The notes below the pieces were generated by a model, which saw nothing but the letters and a program-made list of their open reading frames with translations, did no database searches and was not told where the DNA came from. The translations under genes were made by a program, and so were the position numbers. Positions 1,674 through 63,355 of a DNA stretch of 64,000 bases are shown piece by piece; position 1 is the stretch's first letter, and each line of letters begins with the position of its first letter. Origin of the DNA: an uncultured Eubacteriales bacterium (GTDB taxonomy: Bacteria > Bacillota > Clostridia > Christensenellales > Aristaeellaceae); assembly GCA_902765395.1 (NCBI GenBank), contig CACWZP010000006.1, positions 62,001 through 126,000 on the forward strand, in the 5' to 3' direction.

Positions 1674-2586
1674 ATGCGATTTCCCCCTCCAGATACTTGT
1701 CCCGCAGGCGTTCGATCTCCTCTTCGGTGACGCCCAGCTCCGACGTGATGTAGCCCAGCGCCGAGCCGTAGTTCTGCTTCAGCCAGTCCAGGCCGTTGAC
1801 CATGTACCGGGCGTTCACCGCGTCCATGGCCGTCATCAACGCGTCCAGCTTCTCGCCCTCGACGCCCGCGTCGATCAGCATCTGGCGCTCGCCCTCGATC
1901 AGCTCGGCGTTGAAGGTGTTGGTCAGCAGGTAGTCGGCCAGTATGGTCTCCTCGTCCACGCCCAGCGCGGTGAGGATCAGCATGGCCGCGCAGCCGGTGC
2001 GGTCCTTGCCCTGGGTGCAGTGGAACAGCATCGCCGCGCCCTCGGGCAGGTCGATCAGCTCCCGGAACATGCGCGCGTAGCCCGCCTTGCCCGCCCCGCC
2101 GGACAGGAAGCCGACGTACATATCCTCGCCGATGACGCCCATCTTCAGATACAGCTTCAGCCGGTCCACCGGGTTGTCCATGTCCAGACCTTCCATATCC
2201 TCCGGGGTGATGTTCGCCCGGGCCGCCGCCATGGCTTCCTCGTCGATGATGCCCAGGTGCAGGTTCTCCACACCCTCGATCTCCGGGTCCGGCGCGGCTT
2301 CGATCTCCCTGGTCATGCGAAGGTCGAGCACCAGGGCCAGGTGGTATTCGCCGGTGAGCTTCTGAATATCCGCCTCCGTCGCGCCGCCCAGCGCGGCGGT
2401 GCGCAAAAACGCGCCCCACTTCACCGTGCGGCCGTCCTCCGTGGGATAGCCGCCAAGCTCCCGGGCATTGCCCACGCCCTCCAGCCCCAGGCTCTGGGCC
2501 TGGGGGTCGATCGCCGCGCCCGCCTCCGCAAGGGCGGCGCCCGCCAGCAGCAGGGCCGCGATGAGCGCGCACAGGATACGCTTCAT
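1657..2586 (-). CDS. Secreted tyrosine-phosphatase-like protein
   Basis: This 309-residue protein begins with a signal peptide (MKRILCALIAALLLAGAALA) and continues as a dual-specificity/tyrosine phosphatase of the bacterial PtpB or Y_phosphatase3 type. The P-loop is HCTQGKDRTG, matching HCxxGxxRT with nucleophilic Cys and Arg. An RNARELGGY-like motif (NARELGGYPT) near the N-terminus is also typical of the family. The ATG at 2584-2586 is preferred because AAGGAGA lies 7 nt upstream; an ATG 6 nt earlier is too close to that site. It sits between two STAS-kinase genes. Export implies an extracellular or wall-side substrate, possibly a phosphoester or phosphoinositide rather than the neighbouring cytoplasmic kinases. 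Confidence 0.85.
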   Translation of the reverse strand: MKRILCALIAALLLAGAALAEAGAAIDPQAQSLGLEGVGNARELGGYPTEDGRTVKWGAFLRTAALGGATEADIQKLTGEYHLALVLDLRMTREIEAAPDPEIEGVENLHLGIIDEEAMAAARANITPEDMEGLDMDNPVDRLKLYLKMGVIGEDMYVGFLSGGAGKAGYARMFRELIDLPEGAAMLFHCTQGKDRTGCAAMLILTALGVDEETILADYLLTNTFNAELIEGERQMLIDAGVEGEKLDALMTAMDAVNARYMVNGLDWLKQNYGSALGYITSELGVTEEEIERLRDKYLEGEIAYEDAA

Positions 2587-2614
2587 TGCCATCTCTCCTT
2601 CAACGCTCGATGAT

Positions 2615-3802
2615 TCACCAGTCCAGCGGCTTCGCGCTGCGGATCAGGGGCAGCACCCGCTGGCGGATGCCGACGATCGACACCCGGTTCATGTACTCCA
2701 GGTCGTAGCCGCACCGCCGGGTGCCCTGATAGCTGGACATCAGCTGGGCAACGGGCATGGTCGCAGCGGTGATCCGCTCGATCTCGGCGGGGTCGTCGGT
2801 GCCGAAGTAAGCGCCGCACATCGCCTGCCACATCCTCGGCCCGTCCTCCAGCCTGAAGCCCAGCAGCCGCCGGCGCTCCTCCTCCGGCAGGGTGGACTTG
2901 GGTAGGTAGAGATAGGGCAGGATCAGCCCGGCCACGTCGAACACCGGATGCCCGATGGCAGCGTCGCCGATGTCGATCAGCACGAACTCGCCGTCCTGCT
3001 GCACCATGATGTTCTTGGAATTGAAGTCGCCGTGCAGGAAGGTGTTTCGGTCGGGGATCGACTGTATGAAGGCGCGGATCTCCTCCGCCTCGCCGGGCTC
3101 CATGATGCACTCCACGTGAGGCAGCCAGTTCAGCAGCTCTTCCTTTCGGTTCGGCAGCGCGCCGTTCGCCATCTCAATGGCGTGCAGCTCCCGGAGCAGG
3201 CGGGCGCTCTTTTCGCCCATCTCCTCCACGCAGCCGGGGTCGGCGTCCATGATCTGCGCCACGGTGCGGGCGTTCAGCAGCTCGAACACCACGCCGTAGC
3301 TGTCCCCGCTGCGCACCACGTCATAGGAGATCGCCGTGGGCACGCCCGCCAGGAAGGCCTTCTGGGCAGTGTCGCGCTCGTGCTGGACCATGTCCAGCGT
3401 GAGCCCGGGCGAATACACCTTCACGATGGTCTCCGGGTCGATGCGATAGACCCTGCCGAAGCCGCCGGAGCCGATCAGCTCGCAGCCCTCCACGGACACC
3501 TCCCGCAGCCGCTTCTTCACGTCCAGAAGCTCGGTAAAGCCGGTCACCTCGAAGATGTCGTACACTTCTGCCGAGACGTTCTCCACGGGAAACGCCTTCT
3601 TCGCCAGCTTCCGCAGCTTCATCAGCACCCGCAGGCCGGCGCTGGAGATATACTCCAGCTTCCCGGCGTCCAGCGCGATCTCCAGGCCCGGGTTGGCCGA
3701 GACCGCCGCCATGGCCGCCTTCTCGAATTCGGCGGCGTTGTTCGAGTCCACGCGCCCTGCCGGCGCCAGCAGGAGCCTTCCGCTTTCGACAGTGCTTTGC
3801 AT
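2615..3802 (-). CDS. STAS domain fused to APH/choline-kinase-like kinase (copy 1)
   Basis: First gene of the operon, 395 residues, same design as the copy at 486-1673. The N-terminal STAS domain (YISSAGLRVLMKL) is followed by a kinase with Gly loop IGSGGFGRVYR, lysine strand TIVKVYSP, catalytic loop HGDFNSKN and metal strand LIDIGDA. The catalytic loop differs from copy 2 (HGDFNSKN against HNDLHPGN), so the two kinases may not share a substrate. The STAS C-terminal half and linker are nearly identical between the copies while the kinase domains have diverged. GGGAGG lies 8 nt before the ATG. No promoter was assigned with confidence. Confidence 0.8.
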   Translation of the reverse strand: MQSTVESGRLLLAPAGRVDSNNAAEFEKAAMAAVSANPGLEIALDAGKLEYISSAGLRVLMKLRKLAKKAFPVENVSAEVYDIFEVTGFTELLDVKKRLREVSVEGCELIGSGGFGRVYRIDPETIVKVYSPGLTLDMVQHERDTAQKAFLAGVPTAISYDVVRSGDSYGVVFELLNARTVAQIMDADPGCVEEMGEKSARLLRELHAIEMANGALPNRKEELLNWLPHVECIMEPGEAEEIRAFIQSIPDRNTFLHGDFNSKNIMVQQDGEFVLIDIGDAAIGHPVFDVAGLILPYLYLPKSTLPEEERRRLLGFRLEDGPRMWQAMCGAYFGTDDPAEIERITAATMPVAQLMSSYQGTRRCGYDLEYMNRVSIVGIRQRVLPLIRSAKPLDW

Positions 3803-40386: not shown

Positions 40387-40402
40387 ATAGGAAAATGAAC
40401 GA

Positions 40403-40572
40403 TCGATAGAGGCGCGGGACGCATCAGTAGCGCCGCGGAGCCCCTCCAAGGGCTTTGAAGCGGCGGGAAAGGGCATTTCGCCGAAATCCGGGGCGGTTGG
40501 AGCCGAACCGGGTTGGGGAATCGCGAAACACGCGGTTCACTGTCACAACCCCCGTTGTGGAGCGCTATCTCT
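40403..40572 (+). ncRNA. Lysine riboswitch (L-box)
   Basis: The conserved blocks of the lysC-type leader appear in order: GATAGAGGCGCGG, CATCAGTAGCGCC, GGAGCCCCTCC, GGGAAAGGGCATTTCGCCGAA, ACTGTCACAACC, and the closing GGAGCGCTATCTC. GATAG (40405-40409) pairs with CTATC (40565-40569) as helix P1. The length (about 170 nt) is typical. A terminator follows at 40598-40633, so lysine binding would stop transcription of the transporter genes. The assignment rests on motif order remembered from Bacillus lysC; a covariance-model search would settle it. Confidence 0.9.
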
Positions 40573-40597
40573 GATCCCAGAATCTCATTGCACCTTC

Positions 40598-54738: not shown

Positions 54739-55859
54739 GCGCGACGAAAAACACGGGCGGCATCCGCCTGCTGATGGTGAACACGGTCAAGAGCGAGCTG
54801 AACGGCCAGACGCTGATCGTCCTCAAGTACCTGCGCGCCATGGATCGGGCGGGCATGACCATCGGCTATGCCTCCAAGGGCGAGCCCGCGCCGGAGATCC
54901 GCCAGGCGCTGGAGGCGCTGGGCGTGAAGGTGTGGGCGCTGCCGGAGCGGCGCGGGCAGCGGCCCCTTTCCTATGGCCGCGCCCTTTCACGGATCGTGCG
55001 GCGGGAGGGCTATAATATCGTCCACGTCCACGGCAACAGCGCCACCGTGGCCCTGGACCTGCTGGCCTCTCGGCTGGGCGGCGCCAGGGTTCGCATCGCC
55101 CACAGCCACAACACCACCACCGGCTATCCCCTGGTCAACCGGCTGCTGAAGCCGCTGATGTTCCTGAACGCCAACGGGCGCATGGCCTGCGGCCGGGAGG
55201 CCGGGCAGTGGATGTTCGGGAACCGGCCCTTCGACGTGATCCCCATCGCCAGCGACGCGGACGAGTACGCCTTCGACGCCGCCAGGCGGGAGCAAAAGCG
55301 CCGGGAGATGGGTGTCGGGCCGGAGGACATCCTTCTGATGCTGGTGGGCCTGCTGACGCCCCAGAAGAACCACGCCTTCCTGCTGGACGCCTTTGCGGAC
55401 GCCGTGGCGCGCAACCCCCGGCTGAAGCTGATGCTGGTGGGCGGCGGCGAGCTGCGTCAGCCGCTGGAGGAGCAGGTCGCCCGGCTTCATCTCGGCGATT
55501 CGGTGACGTTCACCGGCCCCGTCCGGGACGTGCCCGACCGCATGCGCGCGGCGGACGCGCTGGTGCTGCCCTCGCTGTACGAGGGCTTCCCCAACGTGCT
55601 GGTGGAGGCGCAGCTGTCGGGGCTTCCGACGCTGGTGTCGGACAAAGTGACCCGGGACTGCGACATGACCGGCCTGCTCGCCTGGCTGCCCCTGGACAGG
55701 GCGGCTTGGGCGGAAGCCATGGCCGCGCACAGGCCCATCGACCGGGACGCCGCCAGCCGCGCAGCCCGCGAGGCCATCGCCCTCCGGGGCTTTGACATCC
55801 GCGCCGCCGCGGCAAAGCTGCGCGGGCGCTATGAGCAGCTGCTGGAAAGCGGACGTTAA
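54735..55859 (+). CDS. Glycosyltransferase family 4
   Basis: This 374-residue GT-B enzyme has the N-terminal VNTVKSELNGQTLIVLKYLR, HVHGNSATVALDLLASRLGG, IAHSHNT, and C-terminal VGLLTPQKNHAFLLDAFADA with PSLYEGFPNVLVEAQLSG, the EX7E motif. It transfers a hexose from a nucleotide sugar, probably to lipid-linked or polymer acceptor. It is the last gene of the operon. Confidence 0.92.
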   Translation: MSATKNTGGIRLLMVNTVKSELNGQTLIVLKYLRAMDRAGMTIGYASKGEPAPEIRQALEALGVKVWALPERRGQRPLSYGRALSRIVRREGYNIVHVHGNSATVALDLLASRLGGARVRIAHSHNTTTGYPLVNRLLKPLMFLNANGRMACGREAGQWMFGNRPFDVIPIASDADEYAFDAARREQKRREMGVGPEDILLMLVGLLTPQKNHAFLLDAFADAVARNPRLKLMLVGGGELRQPLEEQVARLHLGDSVTFTGPVRDVPDRMRAADALVLPSLYEGFPNVLVEAQLSGLPTLVSDKVTRDCDMTGLLAWLPLDRAAWAEAMAAHRPIDRDAASRAAREAIALRGFDIRAAAAKLRGRYEQLLESGR

Positions 55860-55875
55860 GAATTGAAAACAGGGA

Positions 55876-55904
55876 TTGACAAAGCGGATTTGTCGACTTA
55901 TAAT
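55876..55904 (+). promoter_or_regulatory. Promoter of the aromatic amino-acid operon
   Basis: TTGACA (55876-55881), 17 bp, TATAAT (55899-55904). Full consensus. The leader peptide starts about 33 nt after the predicted transcription start. Confidence 0.9.
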
Positions 55905-55944
55905 TTAGCCAACTAAAGCACTGACACACCCGGAGGTACACACC

Positions 55945-56001
55945 GTGAAGCGCAGCGCGTACAGCTTTTACTACTTTTACTTTATCGGCGTTCGCAGATA
56001 G
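55945..56001 (+). CDS. Tyr/Phe-rich leader peptide of the aromatic operon
   Basis: GTG 55945 opens an 18-codon frame, MKRSAYSFYYFYFIGVRR, ending in TAG. GGAGG lies upstream at a suitable distance. Residues 6-13 include four Tyr and three Phe, a composition expected of an attenuation leader such as PheL and very unlikely by chance. It lies between a consensus promoter and a strong terminator, directly before the DAHP synthase gene. Its role is to sense charged tRNA-Tyr and tRNA-Phe, not to make a stable protein. Confidence 0.92.
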   Translation: MKRSAYSFYYFYFIGVRR

Positions 56002-56042
56002 AGAGCTTTGCTGTACACCCAATTCAAGCGCGGATCTTGACA

Positions 56043-56082
56043 ACGGCCCTGCAGTAAAACTCGCTGCGGGGCCGTGTTTTTT
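56043..56082 (+). terminator. Terminator of the aroF attenuator
   Basis: ACGGCCCTGCAG (56043-56054) pairs with CTGCGGGGCCGT (56064-56075), 12 bp with one G-T, loop of 9 nt, then GTTTTTT. It lies 31 bp before the aroF ATG. Confidence 0.93.
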
Positions 56083-56112
56083 AGCCACGGGAACGAAAGG
56101 AAGGAAACCGTC

Positions 56113-57117
56113 ATGATTATTCTTTTGAAGGACAAGGTGAACGAAAAGCAGGTAAAGAACCTGACCAACTGGCTGGAGGGCATCGGCTTCGACCTGCACA
56201 TCTCCAGGGGCCAGCACCAGACCATCATCGGCCTGATCGGCGACACCAGCCGCGTGGACATCGACCTGATCAGCTCGCTGGACATCGTGGAGAGCGTCAA
56301 GCGCATCCAGGAGCCCTTCAAGAGCGCCAACCGCAAGTTCCACGAGGACGATTCCGTGGTGGACTGCGGCGGGGTGCCCATCGGCGGCGGGCACTTCCAG
56401 ATCATCGCCGGGCCCTGCTCGGTGGAGACCCGGGAGCAGATCATCTCCGTGGCCCAGTCGGTGAAGAAGAGCGGCGCGGGCATGCTGCGCGGCGGCGCGT
56501 TCAAGCCCCGCACGTCCCCCTACGCCTTCCAGGGGCTGCACGAAAAGGGCCTGGAGCTGCTCCTGGAGGCCAAGAAGGCCACGGGCCTGCCCATCGTCAC
56601 GGAGATCATGGAGGCGGCGCACCTGCCCCTGTTCGAGGACGTGGACGTGGTGCAGGTGGGCGCGCGGAACATGCAGAACTTCGAGCTTCTGAAGGAGCTG
56701 GGCCAGACCCGCAAGACGATCCTCTTGAAGCGCGGCCTGGCCAACACGCTGGAGGAGCTGCTGATGAGCGCCGAGTACATCATGGCCGGCGGCAACAACA
56801 ACGTGATCCTCTGCGAGCGGGGCATCCGCACCTTCGAGACCTACACCCGCAACACCCTGGACCTGTCCGCCGTGCCGGTGCTGCGCCGGCTGACCCACCT
56901 GCCGGTGGTGGTGGACCCCAGCCACGGCACGGGCCACGCCTACCTGGTGAAGTCCATGGCCATGGCCGCCACGGTGGCCGGGGCCGACGGGCTGATCATC
57001 GAGGTGCACAACGACCCGCCCCACGCCTTGTGCGACGGCAAGCAGAGCCTGACGCCGGAGCAGTTCGACGAGCTGGCGCAGGGGATCCGCAATGTGCTGC
57101 CGTATCGGGTGAGGTGA
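56113..57117 (+). CDS. aroF: DAHP synthase, type I-beta, with N-terminal regulatory domain
   Basis: This 334-residue enzyme has an N-terminal ferredoxin-like (ACT-like) domain (about 1-75) and a barrel with [29 protein letters not shown] and [13 protein letters not shown]. It joins PEP and erythrose-4-phosphate, the first step of the shikimate pathway. The N-terminal domain is known in Thermotoga-type enzymes to mediate feedback inhibition by Tyr or Phe. With the attenuator this gives two control layers. ATG 56113 follows GGAAGGAAA. Confidence 0.96.
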
Positions 57118-57347
57118 ATTCTGATTTGCTTTGCAAATCAGAATCCAATGAATTGCGCCTTCAGCGCATGAATTGACCTGACGGTCATGATTTGCCCTTC
57201 GGGCGTGAATTGCGCCTGCGGTGCCGCTTCCCAATCCGTAGGATTGAGAAGTCGGCAGTCCGGCTAAAGCCGGACCAGCTTTGCCAGAGGCAAAGCTGCC
57301 TTGGCGCATAAGAGAAGGCACAATTCAAATCATGCGCAAAGCGCCAA
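57118..57347. repeat. Array of consecutive short hairpins between aroF and tyrA
   Basis: At least six stems follow one another: ATTCTGATTTGC/GCAAATCAGAAT (57118-57144, perfect 12 bp), GACC-TGAC-GGTC (57175-57186), GCCC-TTC-GGGC (57194-57204), CAATCC-GTA-GGATTG (57232-57246), GTCCGGC-TAAA-GCCGGAC (57258-57275), AGCTTTGCC-AGA-GGCAAAGCT (57277-57297). An outer TTGGCGC/GCGCCAA pair spans 57301-57347. No gene is visible. The first stem may end some transcripts. Confidence 0.85.
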
Positions 57348-57391
57348 TTCATTCTCCCCCCGGTCAACTACAACTCGAAAGGAAGTCTACT

Positions 57392-58222
57392 ATGAAAATC
57401 GCCATCATCGGCCTGGGCCTGATCGGCGGCTCGCTGGCCATGAGCATCCGACGCCACACCGACCACACCGTGTTCGGCCATGACATCAACCCGGAGGTCA
57501 TGCTGCGGGCGAAGGCGGTGGAGGCCATCCACGACGAGCTGACCGGGGACATGCTGCCCGGCTGCGACGTCGTGCTGGTGAGCCTGTTCCCCCAGCTTTG
57601 CGCGGACTGGATCGCGGAGCACGCGGACCGCTTCGGCAAGGGCGCGCTGGTGGTGGACTGCGCGGGTGTGAAGCGCTGCGTGTTCGACCAGGCGGCCCCG
57701 CTGGCGGAGGGCCGCGGCTGGCACTACATCGGCGGGCACCCCATGGCGGGCCGGGAATTCTCCGGCTTTGCCGCCGCCCGGGCCGACCTGTTCGACAACG
57801 CCTCCATGATCCTCTGTCCCCCCGCCGACGTGCCCATCGAGGTCCGGGAGGCGGCCAAGGCCTTCTTCCTGGAGGCGGGCTTCAAGCTGGTGCGCTTCTG
57901 CACCCCCGAGGCCCACGACCAGATGATCGCCTACACCAGCCAGCTGGCCCACATCGTCTCCGGCGCCTATGTCAAGAACCCGCTGTCGAAGGACCACAAG
58001 GGCTTCTCCGCAGGCAGCTTCCTGGACATGACCCGCGTGGCCCGGATGAACGAGGTGATGTGGACGGAGCTGTTCCTGGAGAACAACGACCTGCTGCTGC
58101 CCGCGCTGGACGACCTCATCATGCGGCTGAACGAATATCGCGACGCCCTGGCCGCCGCCGACCCGGACGGCCTGCTGCCCGTGCTGCGGGAGGGCAGGAT
58201 CGCCAAGGAAGCGCTGGATTAG
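57392..58222 (+). CDS. tyrA: Prephenate dehydrogenase
   Basis: This 276-residue enzyme has the NAD motif IIGLGLIGGSLAM, and the catalytic-site segments GGHPMAGREFSGF and AYTSQLAHIVSGAY. It oxidatively decarboxylates prephenate to 4-hydroxyphenylpyruvate for tyrosine. No C-terminal ACT domain is present, so feedback control may rest on transcription. ATG 57392 has AAGGAAG upstream. Confidence 0.95.
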   Translation: MKIAIIGLGLIGGSLAMSIRRHTDHTVFGHDINPEVMLRAKAVEAIHDELTGDMLPGCDVVLVSLFPQLCADWIAEHADRFGKGALVVDCAGVKRCVFDQAAPLAEGRGWHYIGGHPMAGREFSGFAAARADLFDNASMILCPPADVPIEVREAAKAFFLEAGFKLVRFCTPEAHDQMIAYTSQLAHIVSGAYVKNPLSKDHKGFSAGSFLDMTRVARMNEVMWTELFLENNDLLLPALDDLIMRLNEYRDALAAADPDGLLPVLREGRIAKEALD

Positions 58223-58223
58223 T

Positions 58224-58311
58224 GAAAAGAGTTGAGAGTGATTGGCTTGGCCAAACCGTTCGCGTTCTAAGGTACTCTTATCTGGACTCTAAGCTCTGAA
58301 CTCTTTCTCAC
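58224..58311. repeat. Inverted repeat of GAGAGTT type, copy 2
   Basis: GAAAAGAGTTGAGAGT right after the tyrA stop and ACTCTAAGCTCTGAACTCTT before the next gene are imperfect complements. The words AAGAGTT and CTCTGAACTCTT are shared with the element at 45951-46036. Confidence 0.65.
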
Positions 58312-58335
58312 CAAGACCAAAAGGAGGTCTCCCCC

Positions 58336-58815
58336 ATGTCTCAAGTCATCGTCCGCCCCGCGAAGCGGGAAGAACTGGAGCGCGTCAACGAGCTGCGCCG
58401 CATGGTGAACGACCTGCACGTCGCCGGCCGCCCGGCCCACTTCAAGCCTGGTTTCAACGAGGCCCTGCAGCATCACCTCTTCGACCAGTTCGACCAGACT
58501 GAGCGCTTCGGCGTGCTGGTGGGGCTGGTGGACGGCGAGGTGGCCGGGTTCGCCACTGTGCAGTACGTCCACCGGCCCGAAGGCCCCTACACCCACGCGC
58601 TGGACTTCTACCACGTGGAGGAGTTCGGCGTGGACGCGGCCTTCCGCCGCCGGGGCGTGGCCAGCGCGCTGGTGGAATACATGAAGGACGACGCGAAGGC
58701 GCGGGGCTTCACCCGCCTGGATTTGGACGTGTGGGCCTTCAACGATGACGCAAAGGCCTTCTACGACGCGGCGGGCTTCGAAACCTATCGTTTCTACATG
58801 GAGATCAATCTGTAA
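58336..58815 (+). CDS. GNAT acetyltransferase within the aromatic operon
   Basis: This 159-residue protein has the GNAT acetyl-CoA site FGVDAAFRRRGVASALVEYM and a C-terminal KAFYDAAGFETYRFYMEI. It starts VIVRPAKREELERVNELRRM. It lies between tyrA and aroB with short gaps on both sides. No known pathway step needs it, so it is either a passenger or an unrecognised modifier. The acceptor is unknown. Confidence 0.88.
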   Translation: MSQVIVRPAKREELERVNELRRMVNDLHVAGRPAHFKPGFNEALQHHLFDQFDQTERFGVLVGLVDGEVAGFATVQYVHRPEGPYTHALDFYHVEEFGVDAAFRRRGVASALVEYMKDDAKARGFTRLDLDVWAFNDDAKAFYDAAGFETYRFYMEINL

Positions 58816-58828
58816 GGGGAGATCGCGT

Positions 58829-59893
58829 ATGCGCACCATTCATGTCACCGCCTCGAAGGAATACGACGTGCTGATCGGCGAGGGGCTGCTGGACAAGTGC
58901 GGCGAGCTGACCGCGAAGGTGGTCAGGCCCTGCAAATGCGTGATCGTGTCCGACGACACCGTGGACGAGCTCTACGGCGACCGGGCGCAGATCAGCTTCA
59001 GCTACGCCGGCTTTGACGTGACCCGCTTCGCCTTCCCCGCCGGGGAGGCCAGCAAGAACCTCGCGACCCTCACCGACATACTGAATGCCCTGGGCGAGGC
59101 GGGCCTTTCCCGCAGCGACCTGGTGGTGGCGCTGGGCGGCGGCGTGACCGGCGACATGGCGGGCTTTGCCGCGGCCATCTACGCCCGGGGCATCCGCTTC
59201 GTGCAGATCCCCACCACGCTGCTGGCGGCGGTGGATTCCTCCGTGGGCGGCAAGACCGCCGTGGACATGCCCTTCGGCAAGAACATGGTGGGCGCGTTCC
59301 ACCAGCCCAGCCTGGTCATCACGGACACGGACGTGCTGCGCGATCTGCCCGCCGAGCAGCTGTCCAACGGCTGCGCGGAGGCCGTCAAGTGCGGCGTGCT
59401 GAACGACCCGGCGCTGTTCGAGCTGCTCTCCGGCGGCGACTGGCTGGACGACATCGACGAGGTGGTGGAGCGCTGTGTGACCTACAAGCGGGACGTGGTG
59501 GCCGGGGACGAATTCGACACCGGCAGCCGGGCGTTCCTCAACCTGGGCCACACCTTTGGCCACGCCATCGAGCACCTCTCCGGCTACCGGCTGCTCCACG
59601 GCCAGTGCGTGGGCATCGGCATGCTGATGGCCGCCGCCGCGGCAAAGTGCCCGGAGGACATGATCCTCAGGATCGCGGACTGCCTGCGCAGGAACGGCCT
59701 GCCCACCCGCTGCGATTATCCCGCGGCGGCGCTGGCGAAGGCCGCGCTGAACGACAAGAAGCGCGCGGGCGGCTCCATCACGCTGGTACTGCCGGAGGCA
59801 ATCGGCAAATGCCGGCTGGAGAAGGTGCCCGTCTCCGAATTGCCCCGCTGCTTTGAGGCGGCGCTGGCATCCCAGGAGGCGCTGGGCCTATGA
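58829..59893 (+). CDS. aroB: 3-dehydroquinate synthase
   Basis: This 354-residue enzyme has ALGGGVTGDMAGFAAAIYAR, PTTLLAAVDSSVGGKTAVD and NLGHTFGHAIEH with metal-binding His. It converts DAHP to 3-dehydroquinate. ATG 58829 follows AGGGGAG. It overlaps aroA by 4 bp (ATGA). Confidence 0.97.
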   Translation: MRTIHVTASKEYDVLIGEGLLDKCGELTAKVVRPCKCVIVSDDTVDELYGDRAQISFSYAGFDVTRFAFPAGEASKNLATLTDILNALGEAGLSRSDLVVALGGGVTGDMAGFAAAIYARGIRFVQIPTTLLAAVDSSVGGKTAVDMPFGKNMVGAFHQPSLVITDTDVLRDLPAEQLSNGCAEAVKCGVLNDPALFELLSGGDWLDDIDEVVERCVTYKRDVVAGDEFDTGSRAFLNLGHTFGHAIEHLSGYRLLHGQCVGIGMLMAAAAAKCPEDMILRIADCLRRNGLPTRCDYPAAALAKAALNDKKRAGGSITLVLPEAIGKCRLEKVPVSELPRCFEAALASQEALGL

Positions 59894-61107
59894 ACGTACT
59901 CATCACGCCAGGAAGGCTTTCCGGGAGCGTGCGCGCGCCCGCGTCCAAGTCCGCCGCCCACCGCGCGCTGATCTGCGCCGCGCTAGCGGATCGGCCCACC
60001 CGGGTGCGCATCAGCGCCCTGAACCGGGACATCGAGGCCACGCTCGCGTGCCTCGCGGCGCTGGGGGCACAGTTGGAAAATGACGGGGACGGGATACAAG
60101 TCACGCCCATCGCCGACGCGCCTGTGGACGCCCTGCTGGACTGCGGCGAGAGCGGCTCCACGCTGCGCTTCCTGCTGCCGGTGGCCTGCGCGCTGGGCGT
60201 CCGGGCAACGGTCGTCGGCCACGGGCGGCTGCCCCAGCGCCCCAACGCGGCGCTGACGGACGCCCTGCGCGCGCACGGCGCGTCCATCGACAATGACCTC
60301 TTGCCCATGCGCCTCTCCGGGCCCATCGCGGGCGGCCGGTGGGCGCTGCCGGGGGACGTGTCCAGCCAGTACGTCACCGGGCTGCTGCTGGCGCTGCCGC
60401 TGCTGGTGGAGGACAGCGAGATCGTCCTCACCACGAAGCTGGCCTCCGCCGCCTACGTGACCATGACGCTCCAGGCGCTTGCGGCGTTCGGCATCGAAAT
60501 CATCCCCACGGACACCGGCTGGCGCGTCCCCGGCGGGCAGAGGTATCGCTCCCCGGGAGACCTCGAGGTGGAGGGCGACTGGTCGGCGGCGGCGTTCTGG
60601 CACGGGGCCAACGCCCTGGGCGCGGGCATCCGCGTGGAGGGGTTGAAGGCCGACAGCGTCCAGGGCGATCGGGCGGTGCTGGATCTGCTGGGCAGGGCCG
60701 AAATCAACGCCGAAAACGTGCCCGACCTGGTGCCGATCCTGGCCGCCGCCGCGGCGAGCCTGCCCCAGACCACGGTCATCACCGGCGCGGCGCGGCTGCG
60801 GCTGAAGGAGAGCGACCGCCTCGCCACCACCGCCGCCATGCTGCGGGCGCTGGGCCACGGGTGTGAGGTCACCCCGGACGGGCTGGTCATCCGCGGCGGC
60901 AGGCCCGCCCCCTGCGCCGAGGGCGTGCGCACCGTGGACGGCGCCAACGACCACCGCATCGTGATGGCCGCCGCTGTGGCCGCAGCGTTTGCCGACGCGC
61001 CGGTGCGCATCACCGGGGCCGAAGCCGTCGAAAAATCCTACCCGGTCTTCTTCCGGGACTACCAAGCGTTGGGAGGGATCGTCCATGTCGAACACCCTGG
61101 GCAGTAA
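59890..61107 (+). CDS. aroA: EPSP synthase (3-phosphoshikimate 1-carboxyvinyltransferase)
   Basis: This 405-residue enzyme has SGSVRAPASKSAAHRAL, CGESGSTLRFLLPVA, DVSSQYVTGLLLALPLL, EGDWSAAAFW and KESDRLATTA. It transfers enolpyruvyl from PEP to shikimate-3-phosphate. It is somewhat shorter than the usual 425-430. In the glyphosate-contact loop the sequence is CGESGSTLRF rather than the class I LGNAGTAMR, consistent with a class II-like enzyme. Confidence 0.96.
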   Translation: MNVLITPGRLSGSVRAPASKSAAHRALICAALADRPTRVRISALNRDIEATLACLAALGAQLENDGDGIQVTPIADAPVDALLDCGESGSTLRFLLPVACALGVRATVVGHGRLPQRPNAALTDALRAHGASIDNDLLPMRLSGPIAGGRWALPGDVSSQYVTGLLLALPLLVEDSEIVLTTKLASAAYVTMTLQALAAFGIEIIPTDTGWRVPGGQRYRSPGDLEVEGDWSAAAFWHGANALGAGIRVEGLKADSVQGDRAVLDLLGRAEINAENVPDLVPILAAAAASLPQTTVITGAARLRLKESDRLATTAAMLRALGHGCEVTPDGLVIRGGRPAPCAEGVRTVDGANDHRIVMAAAVAAAFADAPVRITGAEAVEKSYPVFFRDYQALGGIVHVEHPGQ

Positions 61108-62155
61108 ATTCCGCGTGACCGTCTTCGGCCAGAGCCATTCGCCGATGATCGGCGCGGTGATCGAGGGCGTCCCCGCGGGCGTCGTGCCGGACATGGCGGC
61201 CATATCGGCCTTCATGGCGCGACGGGCTCCCGGCGGCGGCGACCTGTCCACGCCGCGGAAGGAAGCCGACGCGGTGCGCATCGTCGCCGGGCTGAACGAC
61301 CGGGGCGAGACCTGCGGCGCGCCGCTGACCGCCGTGATTGAGAACACCAACGCCCGCAGCCAGGACTACGATGCCCTGCGGGACGTGCCCCGGCCCGGCC
61401 ACGCCGACTTCGCCGCTGCGGTGAAGTACGCCGGCCACAACGACATTCGCGGCGGCGGGCAGTTCTCCGGGCGGCTCACCGCGCCGCTGTGCTTCGCCGG
61501 GGCGCTGGCCATGCAGCTGCTGGCGGAGCGGGGCATCCGGGTGAAGGCGCGCATCCGCAGCGTCGCGGGCATACCGGACGCGGACATGGATTTCGCACGC
61601 CCCGACCTGGACGCCATCGCCGGTGCAGGCCTGCCCTGCGTGGACACCGACGCCGCGGCGCGCATGGCCGACGCCATCCGCCAGGCGAGGGCCGAGGGCG
61701 ACTCCGTGGGCGGCGTGGTGGAGTGCTTCGCCACGGGCCTGCCCGCGGGACTGGGCGACGGCATGTTCGACGGCGTGGAGAACCAAATCGCCCGGGCGCT
61801 GTTCGGCATCCCCGCCGTGAAGGGCGTGGAATTCGGCGCGGGCTTTGCCGCCGCCGACATGCGCGGCAGCGCCCACAACGACCCCTTCCGCGTGGAGGGC
61901 GGCCGCGTGGTCACCGAGACCAACCGCCACGGCGGCGCGCTGGGCGGCATCACCACCGGCATGCCCCTGGTGGTGCGCGCGGCATTCAAGCCCACGCCGT
62001 CCATCGCGCTGGAACAGAAGTCCGTGTCCCTCTCCCGGAATGAGAACATCCCCCTGACCGTGCAGGGCCGCCACGACCCCTGCGTGGTGCCCCGGGCCGT
62101 GCCCGTGGTGGAGGCCGTCGTGGCGTGCGTGCTGCTGGACATGATGCCGCAGTAG
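61085..62155 (+). CDS. aroC: Chorismate synthase
   Basis: This 356-residue FMN-dependent enzyme has FGQSHSPMIGAVIEGVPAG, RPGHADFAAAVKYAGHND, RGGGQFSGRLTAP and RHDPCVVPRAVPVVEA. It forms chorismate from EPSP. ATG 61085 lies inside the aroA end, giving a 23-bp overlap and coupled translation. Confidence 0.97.
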   Translation: MSNTLGSKFRVTVFGQSHSPMIGAVIEGVPAGVVPDMAAISAFMARRAPGGGDLSTPRKEADAVRIVAGLNDRGETCGAPLTAVIENTNARSQDYDALRDVPRPGHADFAAAVKYAGHNDIRGGGQFSGRLTAPLCFAGALAMQLLAERGIRVKARIRSVAGIPDADMDFARPDLDAIAGAGLPCVDTDAAARMADAIRQARAEGDSVGGVVECFATGLPAGLGDGMFDGVENQIARALFGIPAVKGVEFGAGFAAADMRGSAHNDPFRVEGGRVVTETNRHGGALGGITTGMPLVVRAAFKPTPSIALEQKSVSLSRNENIPLTVQGRHDPCVVPRAVPVVEAVVACVLLDMMPQ

Positions 62156-62212
62156 TCCCGTTTCCCCGTTCCTGCCCATCGCTTTCCGTTTTCCACTCAA
62201 GGAGGTAATCCC

Positions 62213-63355
62213 ATGGAATTGATTGAAATCCGCCGCAACATCGACGCCATCGACGAGGAAATGGTCCGGCTGTTCGCCCGGCGCATGGACTGCGCCCGGG
62301 CCGTGGCCGAAGCCAAGCGGCAGACCGGCAAGCCCATCCGCGACCACGCCCGGGAACGGGAGATCGTCAACCGGCTCACCGCCCTGGCCGGCGAGGGCAA
62401 CGCCCCCTACGTGCGGGCGCTGTACAGCCACATCTTCGACCTGTCCCGCAGCTGCCAGTCCTCGGTGTGGGACCATCAGAGCCCGGTGGAGGCGCTGGTA
62501 ACGAAGGCCATCGCCGAAACCGAGGGCAAGCGGCTGCCGGAGCACGCGCTGGTGGCCTGCCAGGGCACGGAGGGTGCCTACGCCCAGCAGGCCTGCGAGC
62601 GCCTGTTTCCCTACCCCGACATCCTCTACTTCGACAGCTTCGACGGCGTGTTCAGCGCCGTGGAAAAGGGCATGTGCCGCTACGGCATACTGCCCATCGA
62701 GAACAGCACCGCCGGCTCCGTCACCCAGGTGTACGACCTGATGGAGAAGCACCACTTCTACATCGTGGGCGCCCACCGGCTGCGCATCGACCACCGCCTG
62801 ATGCGCAAGCACGGCGCGTCCACCGCGCCCATCGCCGAGGTGGTCTCCCACGAGCAGGCCCTGCGCCAGTGCTCCCAATTCTTCGCCAATCACCCCGAAA
62901 TCACCGCCACGCCCATGGCCAACACCGCCGTGGCCGCCGAGTACGTGGCCAAAAGCGACCGGGACGACCTGGCCGTGATCGCCAGCCGCGCCTGTGCGGA
63001 GCTATACGGGCTGGACATCGTGGGCGATGACGTGAGCGACCAGGCCAGCAACTTCACCCGGTTCATCTGCATCTCCCGCAAGCCGGAGATCTATCCCCAG
63101 GCGCGGAAGATCTCGCTGATGCTGAACCTGGCCCACGAGCCGGGCTCGCTGAACACGGTGGTGTCCCGGCTGGCCATCGCCGGGGTGAACCTCTTAAAGC
63201 TGGAGAGCCGCCCGCTGCCCGGACGGGAGTTTGAGTTCCGCTTCTTCTTTGACATGGCCGCCGACGCCCACGACGCGGACGTGGTGCGGCTGCTGGGCGA
63301 GCTGGAGGCCCACTGCGAGCACTTCACCTTCCTGGGCTGCTACGACGAGCAATAA
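62213..63355 (+). CDS. pheA: Bifunctional chorismate mutase/prephenate dehydratase
   Basis: This 380-residue protein has an AroQ-type chorismate mutase (about 1-85: IRRNIDAIDEEMVRLFARR), a prephenate dehydratase (about 110-290: CQGTEGAYAQQA, LPIENSTAGSV, SNFTRFI), and a C-terminal ACT domain (about 300-380) with LKLESRP for phenylalanine feedback. Together with tyrA it splits chorismate between Phe and Tyr. AAGGAGG precedes the ATG. aroD, aroE and aroK are not seen in this operon. Confidence 0.96.
   Translation: MELIEIRRNIDAIDEEMVRLFARRMDCARAVAEAKRQTGKPIRDHAREREIVNRLTALAGEGNAPYVRALYSHIFDLSRSCQSSVWDHQSPVEALVTKAIAETEGKRLPEHALVACQGTEGAYAQQACERLFPYPDILYFDSFDGVFSAVEKGMCRYGILPIENSTAGSVTQVYDLMEKHHFYIVGAHRLRIDHRLMRKHGASTAPIAEVVSHEQALRQCSQFFANHPEITATPMANTAVAAEYVAKSDRDDLAVIASRACAELYGLDIVGDDVSDQASNFTRFICISRKPEIYPQARKISLMLNLAHEPGSLNTVVSRLAIAGVNLLKLESRPLPGREFEFRFFFDMAADAHDADVVRLLGELEAHCEHFTFLGCYDEQ

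Follow-up and report, generated by a model that had tools for sequence, protein, structure and literature searches.

Attenuation in the proteobacterial pheL, trpL, and hisL leaders follows a common logic, in which control codons of a leader peptide act together with a 1:2 protector helix, a 2:3 antiterminator, and a 3:4 terminator. An aroF leader, aroR of Corynebacterium glutamicum, was reportedly described by Neshat et al. in 2014. According to the accessible text of PMC11802643, pheL senses Phe, and the aroR leader, which carries Phe-Tyr-Phe before the DAHP synthase gene aroF, responds to Phe and not to Tyr. Ribosome stalling at aroR raises transcription of the operon (same text of PMC11802643). 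An excerpt of PMC8632094 proposes attenuation for uORFC-13-1, located upstream of aroF in Acholeplasma, which combines a candidate upstream ORF holding Phe codon(s) with a terminator. Ribosome-mediated attenuation is also documented for other amino acids and operons of Gram-positives. His leader-peptide attenuators occur in Firmicutes (PMC2965389, in part) and have been proposed in several of them, including C. difficile (PMC9413887, in part), and a Leu-rich leader of Leu/ilv genes has been described in Staphylococcus aureus (PMC5794164, in part). Furthermore, Merino's database of 2005 tabulates putative attenuators before tyrA-containing operons, including operons with DAHP synthase and tyrA, e.g., in Thermus thermophilus and Thermoanaerobacter; the accessible part of PMC1173090 names neither the sensor nor a leader peptide.

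The present study concerns a window (the whole stretch of DNA that was analyzed, 64,000 nucleotides) from an uncultured gut bacterium of the Eubacteriales, in which a Tyr/Phe-rich leader precedes aroF. This leader shares the attenuation logic of pheL, trpL, and hisL but differs from them in sequence and host, and no Rfam family matches it. Like aroR, it combines Phe and Tyr codons before aroF; unlike it, as far as the description in the text of PMC11802643 goes, aroR belongs to an actinobacterium, holds Phe-Tyr-Phe only, and is unaffected by Tyr availability. Compared likewise by its description, uORFC-13-1 has 24 representatives, from Acholeplasma and environmental sequences only, with at least one Phe codon and no claim on Tyr in the excerpt of PMC8632094. 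Of the cases that we found in the texts accessible to us, aroR and the uORFC-13-1 candidate come closest, and no report of a Tyr/Phe aroF leader in Clostridia was found among the open-licence papers listed in our searches. A preliminary description of the locus had set Proteobacteria, with their leader peptides, against Firmicutes, better known for T-boxes or TRAP. That contrast is too sharp in view of the His (PMC9413887), Leu (PMC5794164), and Acholeplasma Phe (PMC8632094) cases, as the accessible parts of these sources give them. Ribosome-mediated attenuation is a classical kind of regulation, to which the aroF leader would add a broadly distributed case with a telling codon pattern.

Results

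A leader frame and an intrinsic terminator precede aroF

The elements of the locus, in window coordinates, are as follows.

55876..55904, + strand: sigma-70-type promoter, TTGACA-17-TATAAT
55945..56001, + strand: leader peptide gene MKRSAYSFYYFYFIGVRR, 18 codons, GTG start, TAG stop
55959..55965, + strand: segment 1, GTACAGC, 5' arm of the outer (protector) helix, 7 pairs with 56010-56016
55966..55983, + strand: putative control codons Phe8 Tyr9 Tyr10 Phe11 Tyr12 Phe13, from ribosome-masked folds
55980..56003, + strand: inner hairpin CTTTATC/GATAGAG, nested in the 1:2 domain and containing the stop codon
56007..56016, + strand: segment 2, TTTGCTGTAC, alternative partner of segment 1 or of the terminator 5' arm; no variation across the genus alignment
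56043..56082, + strand: intrinsic terminator, ACGGCCCTGCAG/CTGCGGGGCCGT followed by GTTTTTT
56050..56058, + strand: segment 3, TGCAGTAAA, antiterminator partner, part of the terminator 5' arm and loop
56113..57117, + strand: aroF, DAHP synthase with an N-terminal ferredoxin-like domain (Pfam DAHP_synth_1, DAHP_snth_FXD)
57392..63355, + strand: tyrA, a GNAT gene, aroB, aroA, aroC, and pheA (chorismate mutase-prephenate dehydratase), by Pfam

The promoter agrees with the consensus at 12/12 positions. No other promoter-like site occurs in the scanned 1.7 kb, where shuffled sequences would yield 0.2, and the pattern TTGAC-N-TATAAT recurs in 22/23 of the genus upstreams scanned. Between the end of the upstream glycosyltransferase gene, at 55859, and the promoter, the scan found no terminator-like site; across the same 1.7 kb such sites are not enriched (2 found vs 2.2 expected in shuffles). 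A Shine-Dalgarno sequence, GGAGG, lies 5' of the GTG at 55945. Codons 6-13 of the leader read Y S F Y Y F Y F, so that a short frame, predicted to be translated, holds a run of codons for pathway products, with seven aromatic residues in eight. The terminator stem has 12 pairs (56043-56054/56064-56075), followed by G and six T, and stands between the leader and the first gene. The hairpin ends 37 nt before the aroF ATG and leaves the purine-rich stretch before aroF outside; from the leader stop to the ATG the distance is 111 nt.

The promoter, ribosome-binding site, 18-codon frame with its aromatic run, and 12-bp terminator with six T before aroF had all been read by the preliminary description, and each was recovered where it had placed them. 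The alternative helix that it proposed, TTTGCTGTA/TGCAGTAAA, pairs throughout, with two G-T pairs (56007-56015/56050-56058). What it called a "third helix" starting inside the aromatic codons resolves into two nested helices. Codons Tyr6-Ser7, immediately 5' of the control codons, take part in the outer one (55959-55965/56010-56016), and the inner one (55980-55986/55997-56003) starts at the last Tyr/Phe codons.

The genes aroF-tyrA-GNAT-aroB-aroA-aroC-pheA, aroF first, lie on one strand with short gaps and are presumably co-transcribed. The GNAT acetyltransferase gene (58336-58815, +) sits within this aromatic cluster. Palindromic repeats occupy the aroF-tyrA gap (57118-57390), and 16 more partial matches to them lie elsewhere in the genome. 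At or past the window end are a phosphodiester glycosidase gene, a gene that matches no Pfam family, and a gene fusing shikimate dehydrogenase to shikimate kinase; the fusion (2516-3754 of fetched region L198) has the same orientation and lies beyond the downstream end of the window. The source genome measures 3.38 Mb, and its closest named record by AroF is the uncultured Clostridiales bacterium isolate RUG311 (93% identity). A search of the genome with AroF gave one match at E 1e-30, unrelated type II DAHP synthases being outside this search. If AroF is the sole DAHP synthase, it also feeds Trp synthesis; the leader nevertheless has no Trp codon.

The aromatic leader is conserved among relatives

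The region 5' of aroF, to a maximum of 450 nt, was collected at 177 loci: 77 from the family, 80 from named contigs (the best 80 of 593 relatives), and 20 from the genus. Four further genus loci (L184, L185, L186, and L189) were left out because the N-terminus of AroF was missing, and an AroF match was absent from 3/28 genus genomes. Frames in which no fewer than 5 of 8 residues are F/Y/W were present in 121/177 upstreams (44/77, 57/80, and 20/20, respectively) and were not found in the other 56. Seven of these 56 (L012, L013, L017, L019, L030, L032, and L111) match the RNA model R1, introduced below, at E 0.01 or better. Among the upstreams of at least 250 nt in the first two sets, 100/153 had the leader, vs 8/153 of first-order resampled sequences and 10/153 of reverse strands. 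At the stricter level of at least 7 F/Y/W per 8 residues, such frames appeared in 2/3060 resampled upstreams (153 x 20). The aromatic leader before aroF is thus more than chance.

Within the genus, the leader was found in 24/24 usable upstreams, with gaps of whole codons in the alignment, and the same element is present in L086 and L170. The preliminary description had named conservation among relatives as a check, and these counts bear it out. A Shine-Dalgarno-like site lies 5' of an in-frame start in 102/121 leaders, vs 12.5/121 for random out-of-frame starts. Stems of -14 kcal/mol or better followed by a T-run occur in 114/120 leader regions, one leader being excluded by region length, vs 11/120 shuffled. 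Aromatic leaders before aroF were also seen in metagenome-assembled genomes labeled Planctomycetia, Treponemataceae, and Thermoguttaceae (L139, L135, and L107), L139 matching R1 at E 3e-5; these cases may reflect either mis-binning or gene transfer.

The helices of the leader RNA covary to different degrees

In the window itself, the alternative helices are unexceptional against shuffles (2:3, p 0.20; 1:2, p 0.36; fold z -0.5). Significance in single sequences at p 0.05 or better was reached by the 2:3 duplex in 68/121 leaders and by the 1:2 duplex in 66/121. The case is carried by comparison with relatives.

The genus alignment A1 (23 sequences) served to build the covariance model R1. The antiterminator is paired in 98.9% of its cells in A1, and within-genus covariation is almost nil because the helices are nearly invariant. 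The Phe codons of the 23 genus leaders are TTT 62 times and TTC 3 times, and those of eight sampled window genes are TTT 14 and TTC 85; the TTT preference of the genus aroF leaders is probably a pairing constraint. Matches to R1 at E 0.01 or better, counted when correctly oriented and no more than about 350 nt 5' of aroF, were obtained at 19/74 other family loci and 35/80 named loci, one of the latter (L086) being a training row. Specifically, the E-values were 3.9e-7 for Anaerotignum neopropionicum, 3.2e-5 for Sporobacter termitidis, and 9.3e-5 for Angelakisella massiliensis. Six wrong-strand matches at the same level all overlap the palindromic terminator region. Three helices recur in relatives: the outer 1:2 helix bracketing the aromatic codons, the inner hairpin, and the terminator.

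A broader alignment, A3, holds 47 rows from well-scoring sources (8 from the genus and 39 others), weaker ones being excluded. L018, L090, L094, L098, L139, L168, and L183 were excluded for giving wrong-strand matches as well, and L029 as below the cut-off; one wrong-strand match, L169, is retained. The 1:2, inner, and 3:4 helices together are paired in 94.5% of A3 cells, vs 77.2% in shuffled rows (0/500 reach the observed value) and 37-52% in slid controls, and double changes occur at 27/28 pairs, vs 12-16 when slid. The outer helix is 88.2% paired, with double changes at 7/7 pairs, and the inner helix is 97.0% paired; since A3 was fitted to the protector, inner, and terminator helices, these figures lean towards them. 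With this leaning, the protector helix next to the control codons, the inner hairpin, and the terminator appear to covary strongly.

The antiterminator 2:3 was not included in the covariance model. It is paired in 77.9% of A3 cells, vs 29-52% when slid, and 3/500 shuffles are as high; on four other measures, the observed value is equaled or exceeded in 10-26 of 500 shuffles. Its double changes in A3 (8/12 pairs, 23 cells) are not above the slid controls (4-8 pairs, 6-23 cells). In a swap test read by ranks on the 38 non-genus rows, one of which (L161) has an empty segment, segment 2 paired on average better with the terminator of its own row than with those of other rows; the own partner had a median rank of 0.24 and stood in the best tenth in 15/38 (KS p 4e-4). 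The alignments thus give real yet moderate support for the antiterminator. The preliminary description had looked to covariation of the alternative stems. It is strong for the 1:2 helix and terminator and moderate for the antiterminator, but almost none is seen within the genus.

Predicted folds depend on the position of the ribosome

Equilibrium folds were computed for transcripts ending at 56064, 56068, and 56070 (terminator incomplete), with a ribosome masked at chosen codons in six settings (three footprints, each with the upstream RNA free or unavailable). At 3' end 56070 without a ribosome, the terminator has a predicted probability of 0.95 and the antiterminator of 0.01; with the ribosome at the stop codon, the values are 0.97 and 0. 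Across all six settings, the antiterminator reaches 0.63-0.97 when the A site holds codon 9, 10, or 11 (Tyr, Tyr, and Phe, respectively). The neighboring codons depend on the footprint (codon 8, 0.08-0.94; codon 12, 0.17-0.97; codon 13, 0.09-0.97), and the values for codons 5-7 and Ile14 are 0.07-0.67 and 0.06-0.82, respectively. The antiterminator and terminator share the arm 56050-56058 and so would exclude each other, and in these predicted folds, together with the conserved pairing, the antiterminator would be freed by a ribosome on the control codons.

The folding model is not clean. The ribosome-free antiterminator is predicted at 0.27 for 3' end 56064 and 0.83 for 56068 before reversing to 0.01 at 56070, and several codons are footprint-dependent. 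Moreover, full-length equilibrium folds with ribosome masks, including 3' ends 56076 and 56090, always favor the terminator; therefore, the switch must be kinetic.

Codon content of the leader follows the downstream gene

A second covariance model, R2, was built from A3, and 391 genomes of the class were scanned with it without reference to any gene. Matches at E 1e-3 or better came from 37 genomes, the window's own included. Since eight candidates were scored per genome, the counts are lower bounds. At least 42 matches lie outside the window's own genome: 20 before aroF, 4 before pheA, 1 before tyrS, 1 before leuA, and 16, all weak, before nothing recognised. Downstream genes were assigned for the first 29 loci by tblastn with seven window proteins and for tyrS and leuA by NCBIfam; in the other 12 fetched regions the downstream frame was read. 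At E 1e-4 or better, 21/21 non-own matches precede aroF (18), pheA (2), or tyrS (1), and at least one of these 21 (L205) comes from the contig that also supplied training row L147. Among 398 genomes of the phylum, 4/4 non-own matches at E 1e-4 stand before aroF and carry aromatic leaders. In the window's own genome, R2 gave no significant match besides the aroF copy, the others being at E 0.4 or worse.

Both Tyr and Phe occur in the control window of 117/121 aroF leaders (93/97 outside the window's genus), with totals over the 121 of Tyr 409, Phe 337, and Trp 1. In the related genus with the pheA matches, a script picked leaders before 22/25 pheA genes (60% identity or more) under a looser rule of 4 of 8 aromatic residues plus a position limit; without the limit, about a fifth of resampled 450-nt upstreams pass. 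The control window holds no Tyr in 21/22 of these pheA leaders (Phe 100, Tyr 2, Trp 12). By eye, the exception, L255, was picked in the wrong frame; the right frame reads MVNFSFTWREFSFFAFTKLG. A pheA leader missed by the rule is present by eye in L247; for L253, such a leader lies elsewhere in its genome, in L223; and none was seen by eye in L264. The contrast between aroF and pheA codons has a Fisher p of 2e-18, which ignores relatedness. Hence, leader codon content follows the downstream gene: Tyr plus Phe before aroF, and Phe before pheA.

Tyr-Tyr-Tyr leaders were found at 2/30 tyrS loci, both in one genus. Tyr-rich leaders before tyrS in one genus (L214, 1500-1555; L274; L275) read MTTFLRNRSHKQAYYYLFS and MIFILKNHAHKQAYYYLFQ, and that of L214 is followed by a terminator-like hairpin. 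The aroF attenuator model also found a Leu-rich leader, MKSQFSAQLNLLNLALLLQG, with a terminator-like hairpin before leuA (L231, 1498-1640); the LeuA family search reached one genome, and the Leu leader therefore rests on one case.

Discussion

Ribosome-mediated transcription attenuation of the aromatic operon by the aroF leader is, in our judgment, very probably the right account of these observations. The preliminary description had read the locus as a leader-peptide attenuator, and leader conservation and covariation support this reading. That the leader senses both Tyr and Phe, as also proposed there, is likely to a lesser degree; the dual reading fits the codons, both kinds being present in 117/121 aroF leaders, from which we infer it.

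In the proposed mechanism, RNA polymerase would start just past 55904, and a ribosome would translate the leader of 18 codons. As long as no ribosome is present, segment 2 would be sequestered in the outer helix 1:2, and the terminator 3:4 would form. Under a shortage of charged tRNA-Tyr or tRNA-Phe, the ribosome would stall at or near Tyr9-Tyr10-Phe11, cover segment 1, and disturb the inner hairpin, thereby releasing segment 2. Free segment 2 could then pair with the terminator 5' arm and loop as the antiterminator, and polymerase would read into aroF-tyrA-aroB-aroA-aroC-pheA. With both amino acids ample, the ribosome would reach the stop codon in the inner hairpin and cover segment 2, which would let the terminator form. 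We infer leader translation, stalling, termination in vivo, and the response to both amino acids from the features described above. In Gram-positives such as B. subtilis, transcription may outrun translation, which would weaken a ribosome-timed attenuator.

The same attenuator could have a single effective amino acid, either Phe, as in C. glutamicum aroR, or Tyr, with the other codons kept for RNA pairing or because aromatic codons of either kind fit the U-rich arm. Being a variant of the attenuation account, this reading overlaps with it in probability, and we regard it as rather unlikely. The accessible text of PMC11802643, in which a Phe-Tyr-Phe leader answers to Phe and not Tyr, offers a precedent, and RNA evidently shapes the leader codons here (TTT 62 vs TTC 3), codons 13-14 forming an arm of the inner hairpin. 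However, the codons critical in the predicted folds, 9-11, are Tyr, Tyr, and Phe. Moreover, Tyr is kept in 117/121 aroF leaders and absent from 21/22 script-picked pheA leaders of one related genus, as expected if Tyr codons sense Tyr.

Instead of transcription, the ribosome might alter access to the aroF ribosome-binding site, and the leader does lie near aroF (111 nt from its stop to the ATG). Such translational attenuation is very improbable, given that six T follow the hairpin, that the hairpin ends 37 nt before the ATG and excludes the purine-rich stretch, and that relatives generally carry strong stems followed by T-runs.

In the source genome, T-box matches at E 0.001 or better number 16, of which at least three exceed the gathering score, and the window holds a lysine riboswitch (40399-40575, +, 104.7 bits), so that RNA sensors are common in this genome. 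Therefore, one could suppose that the leader itself is a T-box, a riboswitch, or a protein-binding leader with the aromatic frame as a by-product. We consider this slightly less probable still than translational control. Rfam release 15 gave no match at the gathering score on the window leader or in 16 relatives' loci; up to E 10, the only hit on the leader was a miRNA at E 9.4, and T-box (RF00230) gave none at either level. Furthermore, the frame keeps its Shine-Dalgarno site, whole-codon gaps, and a codon content that tracks the downstream gene. The T-box, riboswitch, and translational-control readings were rejected on the lack of an Rfam match, the T-run after the hairpin, and the conserved frame. 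A chance frame next to an ordinary terminator of the glycosyltransferase gene, which ends at 55859 with no terminator-like site found before the promoter, is hardly credible, since such frames arise in 2/3060 resampled upstreams, the leader is conserved with covariation in relatives, and the promoter intervenes.

One homologous, modular Clostridia scaffold may have moved between genes and been re-coded, with Tyr plus Phe for aroF, Phe for pheA, Tyr for tyrS, and perhaps Leu for leuA, alongside many T-boxes; we hold this tentatively, at somewhat under an even chance. The 16 T-box matches of this genome mean that T-box and leader-type sensors coexist. If such a modular scaffold does operate alongside many T-boxes, translation of these leaders must keep up with RNA polymerase.

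Ribosome-timed attenuation requires close coupling of transcription and translation. Since this coupling has reportedly been lost in B. subtilis, the leaders would offer a direct test of whether it holds in Clostridia. The codon contrast between aroF and pheA leaders constitutes a natural experiment on amino-acid specificity. If the present account is true, a widespread Tyr/Phe attenuator, without a match in Rfam 15, operates in bacteria that are usually described through T-boxes, and it would explain how the supply of aromatic amino acids is tuned in many uncultured gut Clostridia.
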